A stretch of DNA of 5,305 nt, taken from assembly GCA_001803565.1 (NCBI GenBank), contig MHDQ01000193.1, positions 1 through 5,305 on the forward strand, in the 5' to 3' direction. This DNA comes from Nitrospinae bacterium RIFCSPLOWO2_12_FULL_45_22 (GTDB taxonomy: Bacteria; 2-12-FULL-45-22). The notes beneath the pieces are model-generated. The model did no database searches, was not told the DNA's origin, and saw only the letters and a list, made by a program, of their open reading frames with translations. Shown one piece after another: positions 434 through 5,185 of this stretch (positions are counted from its first letter, which is position 1; every line of letters begins with the position of its first letter). A program made the position numbers and the translations under genes.

Positions 434-3400
434 ATGAATAATGTACGCTCCTGTTTAATTAAAGTTGAAGATGACGCCTTACTGGTCGCTAATACCGGTA
501 CTCCTTTTGGCCGACTGAACGTAGTTTCAATATGTGCCTCTCATTTGGGCACAAAACAAAATTACAAACCCATAGACACGTTCTCGAAACGTCCAGACAC
601 AAAACTTATTGAAGAAATAAGAAACCTTAAAATTGAGACCTATAAACGGGACCCTAATTTGTTAAGGGAAGACTATTCAGGTGAAGAGGAAACCCAAAAG
701 GATTATGGAGGTCGCGTTATCTGGGAGCTATTACAGAATGCAGATGATGCTATGGCTCCCAAAGGCACCTCATCAGCCGACCTTATTGGTGTAAAGGGTT
801 TGGGGTTTAAATCGGTATTAGAGGTAACAGAAGAGCCAGAAATTTACTCAGGGAAATTCAATTTCTGTTTTTCGGCAAAAAAAACTCAGAAATTAATTAA
901 AAAAGAAATCAAAGAAATCGAAGATGTTCCTCCCCTCACTTTCCGAATACCCCACGAAGTTTCGCCAAGTTCAATTATTAAAGAACTCCAAAAAGATTAT
1001 GTGACCGTTATATGTCTCCCTTTCAGAGAAGGGAAAGAAGATATTGTCCAAGAGTGGTTAGAAAAGCTTGCTCCTGAATGTATGATCTTTTTTCAGTATA
1101 TTGAAGTTCTTAAAATAATACTTCCAAACCAAGCCCACAGAATTTATTCATGCAAGCGTGAAAAACCCGGAGAGTTGACTGATTGCGATATTTCCATTAA
1201 AGAGGAAATTGGAGACAAAACATTTCAGTATCGTTTATGGACAAATACTTGGAGTGGTGAAAGTGGTTGTAAACGTCATAGCGCGGCAATTTCAATCCCT
1301 TTGAAAGACGAGAAACCGGTTTCTTTTGATAGAACTCACCCCCTTTATGTATTCTTACCAACCTCGGAACACCTTCCCTTTCGTGCTTTAATGCATGGCT
1401 CATTTGACCTGGAGCAAAACCGTAAACACGTCCGGAATCCAGAGGAACATAAAAGTCATAAGACTAATTATGCCGATTTAATTTCTCGGATTCTTGACAA
1501 CATACCGGCCTCAACCGCACTTCGGGCATTTGTACCAGGCGTAGAACCGGAACAAGATACAGTTGCGTCCTTCCTATGGGAAACTATCAAAGAAAAGATG
1601 GCTGAAAAGGCATTTTTACCGTGCTTGGGAGGATTAAAGGTAACTCCAGGGAAAGCCCGCTTGTGGAAACATAATCTTGGCAAAGTTGTGGATTCCACGT
1701 TGGAAAAGGTTAAGGAGCTAAATCTTGCAGAGCAAGAATTGGTTTTAGACGAAAAATGTAAAAAGGCATTGGAACATTTCGGTGCAAAGAGTATAGAAAG
1801 TGAGCAATATCCATTAATTCTCCAGAATTGCCGCAACAGTAATTTGGATGATTGCCGGGAATCACTTGAAACGCTGTATGATGTTGTGGCAAGTTACACT
1901 CCTCAGCATGATGAAAAGCGAAAAGATTTATTTTTAAATAACTGCCGCAATGTCCCCTGCTGGTGGACTGAAAGCGGAAAAGCCCGTTCGATATCAAAAG
2001 AGACAAAACCGCTTATTCGAAAAAATCTGGACGAGTCTCTGCCTGAATGGCTGACGGTCGACATACTACACGAGGGAATTCTTAGTTTAATTGAGAATTA
2101 TGAGAAGGCAACGGATAAGGGAAGAAAAAAATGTTTGGAAGAGCTTTTAAAAGGGGGTTTGCTTCGAGGTGAAAAAGAAGAGCTTGTAGATTCCGTACTA
2201 ATACCATATTTGGAACAAAAAATTGCGCAACAGGAATGGTGGAAGAAATACGGCTGGGAAGCCTTGAGACTTTACCTGGCTTGGAGTAAGAATCATTCTT
2301 TTGACGATACAAAACCAATATTTTGTGATAATGATAAGCAAAACAGGCGAGCAAGGACAATTCAGTTTCCAACTGCCAAAGGATGGATGCCCGCATGGAA
2401 ATGTTATGCGGGGAAATTATGGGATGGCCCAGAGAGCTTTGACGAATTTTTCAAGAAAATTCCTGACCGCGGGATATTAAGCCCTCTTAAAGATTGGGAA
2501 GAATCGTTCAGGGGTGAGGATAGAAGTGTTATCAAAGGAAAACTTAGATATGCAGGGATATCGTGGGAACCTAAAGTGCTAAAATTTGAGGCAAAGACTG
2601 AGCAAGACGAGATTGATTTTAAGGGATATCCGAAATATCCACCAAATTGCTGGAAAGACCTCATTCCGGATAGTTATTGGGAACAGTATTGCAAATCGTT
2701 ATCCACAATAGAATATGATAAGAAAAATGTGTTTGAACGCGATGCAAAGCTAAAAAAGCAATGGGTCATAGAATATTTTCACGATGCATTACCTCCAAAG
2801 GCATTAGATCGTATTAAAATTATCAAACCGTTAGCAGAAAGAATCATGCAAGATATGCAGCGTATGACTTTTACCAGTGGAGAGCGTAAGGGAGCCAGAG
2901 GTACAAGGTTTCTCGACTCCTTTGCTTACTGGCAGTTGAGTAAAGTTGCATGGCTACCATGTAAACCCAGCCTGATTCACAGGGACAACTGGATATCTCC
3001 TTTAGATGGATATCTTTCGGGGAAAGGCCTCAGTGGTCTGTTGCCGGAAATTGATATTAAGTTGGATGATAATCAAGAAGGACGTGATATTGAAACCTTG
3101 CTAGTAAAAACTCTCAAGGTTCGTGAAACATTGCCCCGTGAAGATGAATCACAATGGAGTAACTGGCTTAATGACCTTCCTGGGCATGTTGCATCTTTTC
3201 CAGATAAAGAAAAAGCGCTTAAAAGCATAGAAAAACTATGGGAAAAAGTCCTATCCTTTAAGGATTCTTCACGGTTGATGGGTATAGATAAAATCCCATG
3301 TAAGGTCTGGCGGGATGAAAATGAAATCCTTGAGTTCAGATCAAAATCCGAAGTTTATTGGGTTGACAAGGGATATTTAAACGAACGGTCAACACGTCAT

Positions 3401-4585
3401 GCTCTTCTAAAAAATGGTTATTCACTTTTTATTCTGGAGCTACAAGAAGGAGAACGCATAAATGAGCTGTTCAAAGTCGGGCGATTGTCTGAGAAAATTG
3501 CTGTTGATCATTATTTTGAAGGGAAAAATGAAGATTTGAGTACATCCGCAAAGGAACGCTATCAGGAAAGGTATAAAGCTCTCAAGGCAATTCAAAACAA
3601 CATAAAACTTCCTAATCCCGATAGCCTTCTAATTGACGTAGTAAAAAACTTAAAAATAAGAATTAGCAGAAAGGATGGGCAAGAAATCGCAAATGACATT
3701 TCCCGTCCTTTCTGGATTAAAGAAGACAAAACGTTTGTGATTGATGAAAAGAATATGTGGGAAGGGTTTGGCCTGGCGTTGACTGATAGTAGTTCTTCTC
3801 CCGGCATTTCCAGTCTTTTTGAAAATATTATGAGAGAAGAAAACTGGGCGGGGGTATTGAGACGTCTTCGGGAAGCAAGCGTCCCTGAAAACAGTGTTCA
3901 CGAATTGGAGCAATCTATCACTCCTAGTAGTTCTAAACCGAGCGATGGGATAGGGACGGGTGCATTGGATGGTACATCTGCTGTCATACCACCATTAACA
4001 ATCCATCCGCCTGAAACCGGAGGAACTAGGCAAACACGTGCAAGCACGCAGGTTCGAAAGGTAAAAGGTCAGGTCGCTGAAGACTGGTTTCGCAATGAAT
4101 TGAAAGAGCTCCTTGGATCGCATGGCTGGCATATCAGCGAAGGCCCCAAAAAGGACGAAGATAATTTGGAAAGTGATATCGTATTAACACACGACCAAAA
4201 AGAAACATACCACATTGAAGTAAAACATGCAGAGGCTAATGCATTATATTGGTCCATTAAAGAAGTTGAAAAGGCTCGTAAAAACCCAAAACACTATTGG
4301 ATGGTTATTATTCGTCCAACTGAAGAAGGTCAAGCAGAGTACCGCTGCATTCTGATAGAAGACCCTCTTGAAACGTTAGAACATAACGAGCGAAGCGGCA
4401 CGTGGCTTTGGCAAGCAAGAGATGACAAGGTGCCAATAAATGAAGGATGGGATACACCTGAGCCAAAGCCAAAGAAAGAGGCGAATAATTTTTCTTTTCA
4501 AATTAGTATCAATGATAGTTATTTTAATGGGGATAAATTCCCAGATGCATTCGATTTTATAAAGGACAAACTAATTGAAACTTAA
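434..4585 (+). CDS. Sacsin/NO VEIN-like GHKL ATPase with C-terminal DUF3883-type nuclease domain
   Basis: A 1383-residue, presumably cytosolic protein. Residues about 1-150 form a GHKL (Hsp90/sacsin-type) ATP-binding module: N-box ELLQNADDA (E98, N102, D105), glycine motif GVKGLGFKSV (119-128), then EEPEIYSG. The G1-equivalent strand, DALLVANTGTPF (14-25), lies before the N-box, an unusual order. Residues 304-332 (YVFLPT, FDLEQNRKHV) resemble the transducer region that follows the ATPase in such proteins. The long middle is Trp-rich and not recognised. A Ser/Pro/Gly/Thr linker (about 1161-1206) leads to a PD-(D/E)XK-like domain with KGQVAEDW (E1216), SDIVL (D1248) and IEVK (E1262, K1264), like the C-terminal domain of plant NO VEIN (DUF3883). 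The last roughly 80 residues are unassigned. The ATG at 434 is preferred because conserved sequence begins within 15 residues; the next in-frame ATG would cut through the N-box. Its Shine-Dalgarno is weak (AGGA at 415-418). A defence role is inferred, not shown. Confidence 0.85.
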   Translation: MNNVRSCLIKVEDDALLVANTGTPFGRLNVVSICASHLGTKQNYKPIDTFSKRPDTKLIEEIRNLKIETYKRDPNLLREDYSGEEETQKDYGGRVIWELLQNADDAMAPKGTSSADLIGVKGLGFKSVLEVTEEPEIYSGKFNFCFSAKKTQKLIKKEIKEIEDVPPLTFRIPHEVSPSSIIKELQKDYVTVICLPFREGKEDIVQEWLEKLAPECMIFFQYIEVLKIILPNQAHRIYSCKREKPGELTDCDISIKEEIGDKTFQYRLWTNTWSGESGCKRHSAAISIPLKDEKPVSFDRTHPLYVFLPTSEHLPFRALMHGSFDLEQNRKHVRNPEEHKSHKTNYADLISRILDNIPASTALRAFVPGVEPEQDTVASFLWETIKEKMAEKAFLPCLGGLKVTPGKARLWKHNLGKVVDSTLEKVKELNLAEQELVLDEKCKKALEHFGAKSIESEQYPLILQNCRNSNLDDCRESLETLYDVVASYTPQHDEKRKDLFLNNCRNVPCWWTESGKARSISKETKPLIRKNLDESLPEWLTVDILHEGILSLIENYEKATDKGRKKCLEELLKGGLLRGEKEELVDSVLIPYLEQKIAQQEWWKKYGWEALRLYLAWSKNHSFDDTKPIFCDNDKQNRRARTIQFPTAKGWMPAWKCYAGKLWDGPESFDEFFKKIPDRGILSPLKDWEESFRGEDRSVIKGKLRYAGISWEPKVLKFEAKTEQDEIDFKGYPKYPPNCWKDLIPDSYWEQYCKSLSTIEYDKKNVFERDAKLKKQWVIEYFHDALPPKALDRIKIIKPLAERIMQDMQRMTFTSGERKGARGTRFLDSFAYWQLSKVAWLPCKPSLIHRDNWISPLDGYLSGKGLSGLLPEIDIKLDDNQEGRDIETLLVKTLKVRETLPREDESQWSNWLNDLPGHVASFPDKEKALKSIEKLWEKVLSFKDSSRLMGIDKIPCKVWRDENEILEFRSKSEVYWVDKGYLNERSTRHALLKNGYSLFILELQEGERINELFKVGRLSEKIAVDHYFEGKNEDLSTSAKERYQERYKALKAIQNNIKLPNPDSLLIDVVKNLKIRISRKDGQEIANDISRPFWIKEDKTFVIDEKNMWEGFGLALTDSSSSPGISSLFENIMREENWAGVLRRLREASVPENSVHELEQSITPSSSKPSDGIGTGALDGTSAVIPPLTIHPPETGGTRQTRASTQVRKVKGQVAEDWFRNELKELLGSHGWHISEGPKKDEDNLESDIVLTHDQKETYHIEVKHAEANALYWSIKEVEKARKNPKHYWMVIIRPTEEGQAEYRCILIEDPLETLEHNERSGTWLWQARDDKVPINEGWDTPEPKPKKEANNFSFQISINDSYFNGDKFPDAFDFIKDKLIET
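4055..4330 (+). other. PD-(D/E)XK nuclease-like (DUF3883/NOV-C) domain within the large protein
   Basis: This is the coding segment for roughly residues 1208-1300. It has the order expected of the fold: a helix with KGQVAEDWF (E1216), GWHI, an acidic strand ESDIVL (D1248), a strand with IEVK (E1262-x-K1264), then a helix SIKEVEKARKNPKHYW and a hydrophobic strand MVII. The Asp, Glu and Lys of the active site are all present, so catalytic competence is possible. Many DUF3883 domains are uncharacterised, and neither nuclease activity nor substrate can be read from sequence. Confidence 0.7.
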
Positions 4586-4790: not shown

Positions 4791-4850
4791 ACCACAGACT
4801 TCGTCGTGAGCGCTCAGTCGAACGATTTCTCAGATTACACAGAAAAAAAG
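4791..4850. repeat. Shortened copy of the upstream REP-like repeat in an ACCACAG/CAGATTACACAG context
   Basis: GACTTCGTCGTGA (4797-4809) and TCAGTCGAACGATT (4814-4827) are exact copies of 212-224 and 298-311. Here only four bases separate them instead of 73, so the hairpin arms and the tandem unit are missing. They are bordered by ACCACAG on the left and CAGATTACACAGAAAAAA on the right, which together look like another widespread intergenic repeat interrupted by the first. It is either an internally deleted copy or a minimal form of the element. Confidence 0.6.
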
Positions 4851-4909: not shown

Positions 4910-5185
4910 ATGCAAGGAACGAGGTCTATTCTAAGTGAGTATGTGGAACAAGCTATGGCACAAGCCCTCTACGATAAGCTTGAAGATAGTACATTTTCAG
5001 GCCGTATTCCGGTTTGTAAAGGGGTTGTGGCGTTTGGCGCTACATTGCGCCAGTGTGAGGATGAATTACGTTCAACGCTTGAAGATTGGATTTTGGTTGG
5101 GTTGAAATTTGGCCATACTTTACCAGTGATTAGAGGTATCGATCTGAATAAGGAGCCAACCCGTGAGCCGATGGACGCCGTGTAA
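4910..5185 (+). CDS. hicB: HicB-family antitoxin
   Basis: A 91-residue protein of the size usual for short HicB antitoxins. From residue 10 it follows the pattern of the HicB RNase H-like fold: YVEQAMAQALYDKLED, then FSGRIPVCKGVVAFGATLRQCEDEL (residues 29-53), where the 'G.IP...GV.A...T...C..EL' spacing is typical. Next comes the helix LRSTLEDWILVGLKFG and the ending LPVIRGIDLN. HicB proteins bind and neutralise HicA, a small mRNA-cleaving toxin, and many also repress their own operon. No separate DNA-binding domain is visible after residue 80. The start is fixed by AGGAGG at 4898-4903. Order here is antitoxin then toxin, with the toxin-like frame overlapping the last 23 bases. Family assignment is by remembered pattern. 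Confidence 0.85.
   Translation: MQGTRSILSEYVEQAMAQALYDKLEDSTFSGRIPVCKGVVAFGATLRQCEDELRSTLEDWILVGLKFGHTLPVIRGIDLNKEPTREPMDAV
5150..5155 (+). promoter_or_regulatory. Ribosome binding site of the overlapping hicA-like frame
   Basis: AAGGAG within the end of hicB lies seven bases before GTG at 5163. It supports GTG as a real start and suggests that toxin translation is coupled to translation of the antitoxin. Confidence 0.6.

Follow-up and report, generated by a model that had tools for sequence, protein, structure and literature searches.

The GHKL ATPases, which include gyrase B, Hsp90, the histidine kinases, MutL, MORC and sacsin, are treated as fixed in the order of their motifs, and both motif searches and profiles assume this order. 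In ordinary members the ATP lid runs directly on from the G1 helix to the G2 motif. Work on sacsin counts an arginine of the middle region and a short, lysine-bearing lid among the parts of its site (PMC9880540). The protein described here is encoded in a window of 5305 bases, which is one entire contig from a metagenome-assembled genome (MAG), and its ATPase domain runs, unlike the canonical GHKL order, from G1 and the start of the lid to the N-box and then to G2. As the motif order common to every canonical member examined fails in this domain, the protein is a rearranged variant of the GHKL or Bergerat-fold ATPases and not a canonical member. No relevant description of a permuted GHKL domain or Bergerat fold was found in the literature searched, most subscription journals lying outside it.

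Gene, domains and family assignment

The single large gene on the contig is a confirmed open reading frame encoding 1383 amino acids. Its ATPase domain was split into segment A (the N-terminal helices and the N-box), segment B (the hairpin, G1, a helix and the first part of the lid) and segment C (G2 onward). The features are as follows.

434..4585, forward strand: TmtA (Tiamat)-like protein with rearranged GHKL ATPase domain (PADLOC PDLC03964, NF047352)
434..568, forward strand: segment B, residues 1-45; G1 beta-hairpin (N20, G22), helix and start of the lid with K41
569..601, forward strand: loop from B (lid) to A, residues 46-56; poorly conserved, low model confidence
602..751, forward strand: segment A, residues 57-106; N-terminal helices and N-box ELLQNADDA (E98, N102, D105)
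752..784, forward strand: new linker MAPKGTSSADL, residues 107-117, from the N-box helix directly to G2
785..928, forward strand: segment C, residues 118-165; G2 motif GVKGLGF and the strands after it
1421..1423, forward strand: R330, middle-region arginine, candidate gamma-phosphate partner
4049..4327, forward strand: NOV_C / PD-(D/E)XK-like domain with D1248, E1262 and K1264 (PF13020)

The best family match is the PADLOC profile of TmtA from Tiamat (PDLC03964, E 2.1e-87), whose best stretch covers residues 109-1158 and begins at profile position 103, segments A and B being out of the profile's order; the sacsin-type ATP-binding model P_loop_sacsin of NCBIfam (NF047352) also matches (E 3e-13). 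Because of the swapped motif order, the first 110 residues of proteins with the B-A-C arrangement, of which four are known here, escape profile searches. In the C-terminal region, Pfam NOV_C (PF13020) matches residues 1219-1295 (E 1.7e-7), being above the cutoff also in the Candidatus Brocadia relative (L006) and not reported for the Mesorhizobium relative (L007); a match to PF24608 is below the cutoff (E 0.0048). Within the NOV_C region there is a PD-(D/E)XK-like pattern, D1248...E1262-x-K1264, shared without change by all four B-A-C proteins. The NOV_C domain is preceded by a proline/serine-rich linker (residues 1160-1205, window 3911-4048) that diverges fast, with 20-61% identity between otherwise similar proteins. 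The window protein derives from the Tiamat group's sacsin-type GHKL ATPases and probably works like them, and on homology alone an anti-phage role may be supposed.

Upstream of the gene, positions 3-164 encode the C-terminus of a phospholipase D-like protein (PLDc_2, E 1.1e-10) that is cut by the contig edge. Downstream, positions 4910-5185 encode a 91-residue UPF0150-like (HicB-like) protein (E 1.8e-27), which may be the antitoxin member of a HicAB-type pair whose toxin would lie beyond the contig edge. The short words TTCGTCGTGA and GTCGAACGAT are shared by the two flanks of the gene (215-310 and 4800-4826) and look like a dispersed repeat; a repeat search of the window returned no repeats of at least 16 bases.

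Order of segments in the ATPase domain

The motifs ANTGTPF (residues 19-25), ELLQNADDA (98-106) and GVKGLGF (119-125) lie where they were first reported, and the claim that a G1-like segment stands ahead of the N-box is borne out by hidden Markov models of the three segments, which were built from 23 canonical relatives only and compared with a background of 1000 shuffled sequences. The canonical B model matches the window protein at residues 7-42 (20.8 bits vs 3.4 for the best shuffle), the A model at 57-106 (57.8 vs 6.8 bits) and the C model at 118-165 (50.0 vs 6.3 bits), the position of B in canonical relatives being after the N-box. The G1-like segment, originally given as residues 14-25, is present and proves to be longer, B including both the helix and K41, the lysine of the lid. 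As first stated, 12 residues (107-118) separate the end of ELLQNADDA from the start of G2; the distance from N-box to G2 start is 20 residues in the window protein, compared with 52-72 in relatives. The segment models detected no second copy of A or B in the window protein, and no A-like stretch was found upstream of the gene in six frames of the window or of the three B-A-C relatives, so that a frameshift at the 5' end is indeed no explanation.

The change is best described as a transposition of blocks A and B, by which the N-box helices now lie inside the ATP-lid loop. The original prediction had offered a circular permutation or a rearrangement in the lineage. The latter stands, as the new order is lineage-wide with the fold apparently kept in the predicted model, but a strict permutation of the whole domain is rejected since G2 and all that follows it are unmoved and only A and B were exchanged.

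Relatives, clade and selection

When 49 relatives were scored with the segment models, 45 had the order A-B-C, four had B-A-C, and no other order was seen. The scores of the B-A-C proteins are independent of the models, and those of the 23 canonical sequences (of 45) on which the models were trained are not. Among the canonical relatives are plasmid-encoded ones from Rhizobium, Haematobacter, Methylorubrum and haloarchaea, 26 from viral contigs, and one from G779, a planctomycete in the order to which Ca. Brocadia belongs. A canonical-order relative in this planctomycete (contig 150, Brocadiales) is split over reading frames, which probably reflects either a pseudogene or an error in sequencing.

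The B-A-C proteins are those of the window, of a planctomycete groundwater MAG (L005), of Candidatus Brocadia WS118 (L006) and of Mesorhizobium onobrychidis (L007), the last encoded on the complete plasmid pOM4. The evidence base is thus four sequences only, three of which (window, L005 and L006) are close, with 76-78% identity overall, while the Mesorhizobium protein, at 27% identity, is collinear with that of the window from residue 1-2 almost to the end. The phylum of the MAG that holds the window is not that of the Brocadiales, yet its protein is 76-78% identical to Brocadiales genes; a recent transfer or wrong binning of the short contig is possible. In a tree of the region from C onward, with A and B left out, the four B-A-C proteins are monophyletic (support 89/83) and group together in 90% of bootstrap trees, which is good support although below maximal, and one origin therefore suffices. 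The order shared by homologues is conserved across a deep clade, an outcome that had been named beforehand as support; the contrary outcome, an NNVR segment preceded by an N-box in the canonical position, was not seen within this clade, more distant relatives being canonical.

Among the three close genes, dN is lower than dS in A, B and C for every pair, demonstrating purifying selection on all three blocks; in the shortest comparison, which is that of B between the window and L006, the gap is narrow (dN 0.071 vs dS 0.1). Neighbouring genes differ at each B-A-C site, which fits a mobile single-gene system, and each genome or plasmid searched has one match only to the gene. A set of 386 spread genomes, four sets at phylum level, the order of Ca. 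Brocadia, eight viral-contig scans and the phage collection yielded no further B-A-C member, and the Mesorhizobium plasmid is the sole plasmid match with this order.

Predicted fold and the ATP site

An AlphaFold2 model was obtained from 29 sequences (pLDDT 78.9, pTM 0.81), in which canonical relatives inform A and C, and B is informed by three permuted sequences only. Canonical rows were used for A and C alone because with MAFFT neither B-C fragment rows nor separate A, B and C rows could be aligned in the wanted register; a model from the three permuted sequences by themselves (pLDDT 34) was discarded. The predicted model has the alpha/beta sandwich fold, and the segment B strands 6-12 and 15-20 have pLDDT of 83 and 94, respectively, with lid residues 38-46 below 50.

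The closest solved chain by VIA-align is sacsin SR1 (5v44; Z 9.5, 2.9 A over 142 residues), with model residues 3-241 on sacsin 125-336, the numbering offset of the sacsin chain being an estimate good to within two residues. Model residue 3 falls on sacsin 125, a position that the profile alignment puts just past the sacsin N-box. In the alignment to Hsp90 (2akp), which is also among the closest chains, model residues 1-231 fall on 58-210, past the Hsp90 N-box at residues 33-40. In both alignments B starts on the strand after the N-box. The structure aligners are assumed to keep chain order, and since B plus C match post-N-box sacsin at low rmsd, B appears to occupy the G1 position, as the superposition originally proposed was expected to reveal. 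An alternative alignment (8ffw_B) sets model residues 72-333 on Hsp90 20-403, and this one alignment would place A on the canonical N-terminal helices. Foldseek ranks Hsp90 chains first (E 7.5e-7); their large rmsd is what a forced chain order would be expected to give. When the PDB was searched by sequence, the whole window protein matched nothing and canonical relatives matched sacsin alone. In the model, then, the Bergerat fold seems to be kept with B in the G1 position of a sacsin/Hsp90-like nucleotide site, and a failure of residues 1-45 to pack in that site is not seen; AlphaFold may, nevertheless, recall the common fold.

The residues required of a GHKL site are present, namely E98, N102 and D105 of the N-box, N20-T-G22 of G1 and G119-x-x-G122-x-G124-F of G2, and the ATP-site residues are conserved, E98, N102, D105, N20, G22, K41, G119, G122 and G124 being invariant in all four B-A-C proteins. 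R330 is likewise invariant and, judged from the sequences, may be the partner of the gamma-phosphate; by analogy, R330 and K41 could correspond to the arginine and lid lysine of sacsin.

Origin of the rearranged order

There is a strong case that the window encodes a TmtA-like ATPase/nuclease-like protein in whose lineage the GHKL blocks A and B were exchanged once. The likely route would be a partial tandem duplication to A-B-A-B-C, after which the first A would have been lost by an internal start and the second B by deletion. It is unlikely, though worth keeping in view, that B was instead taken from another GHKL gene and the original B then lost; B is short and its own ancestry is not resolvable, and no observation decides against such a transfer, intermediate orders having been absent from about 1,600 genome searches in which some genomes were searched more than once.

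Two further accounts are improbable. In one of them the order is real but the ATPase domain is non-functional, with no nucleotide site formed by B and A and the gene working through its other domains; the lid is weakly supported in the model, but the nine invariant site residues, the selection on A, B and C and the placement of B in the G1 slot of the model speak against it. The other, to which we give similarly little credence, has B packing in trans, the N-terminal hairpin completing the site of a dimer partner as a domain-swap device. Hsp90-type proteins swap N-terminal segments between subunits, which favours such packing, and the B-A linker is flexible at about 10 residues; the single-chain model (pTM 0.81), however, has B packed within the same domain.

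Since the window spans all of a 5305-base MAG contig, an assembly error or a recent one-gene rearrangement, such as a chimera of tandem copies, might be suspected, but this is ruled out almost entirely by independent homologues with the same order in two other MAGs (76-78% identity) and on a complete plasmid (27% identity), and by the purifying selection on each block. Ahead of the start codon, the window and Brocadia DNA match over about 38 bases and then diverge, and the 5' end of the gene is therefore fixed. Misassembly, a frameshift or a wrong start as the cause of the B-A-C order is not credible because of the four-protein clade, which includes the complete plasmid.

Proposed mechanism and significance

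ATP would be bound and hydrolysed by the rearranged fold. In the window protein the chain leads from the lid to the N-box helices, then through 12 residues to G2, and the far end of the lid would thus be tied to the N-box helices and not to G2, an arrangement that may be called a split lid. The lid would be coupled to the helix of the catalytic N-box glutamate, and not to G2, because the N-box helices have moved into the lid loop, and we would guess that its closure moves the N-box helix directly. The ATP state might then be relayed to the NOV_C/PD-(D/E)XK-like domain at the C-terminus in a defence response, as supposed for Tiamat. It is a tentative proposal, somewhat more doubtful than not, that the rewired Bergerat fold with its split lid represents a different ATP-driven switch in phage defence that arose in one event and spread across phyla.

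A natural swap of order that keeps every catalytic residue would mean that the fold tolerates changed connectivity, and it offers a natural experiment on the purpose of the lid's tether to G2.

Comparison with known systems

Tiamat TmtA (PDLC03964 and relatives) resembles the window protein in being a large single protein with a GHKL/sacsin-like domain first and a long middle region, and its profile aligns from G2 to residue 1158 (E 2.1e-87). Canonical TmtA-like relatives have the order A-B-C and match this profile from its start, whereas the window protein has B-A-C and its best stretch runs from C onward. Sacsin SR1 (5v44, 5v47) is the best structural match and has the N-box, lid lysine and G2 signature in common with the window protein; it differs in its order of N-box, hairpin, lid and G2. 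The N-terminal domain of Hsp90 shares the Bergerat fold, the E/N/D residues of the N-box and the G2 glycines, and the model aligns with it at Z up to 8.9; the order of the first two blocks differs, and the lid of the window protein is interrupted by the N-box helices. Proteins of the NO VEIN / DUF3883 type (PF13020) have the NOV_C-like C-terminal domain in common with the window protein but, in the DUF3883-annotated relatives examined, retain the canonical ATPase order.
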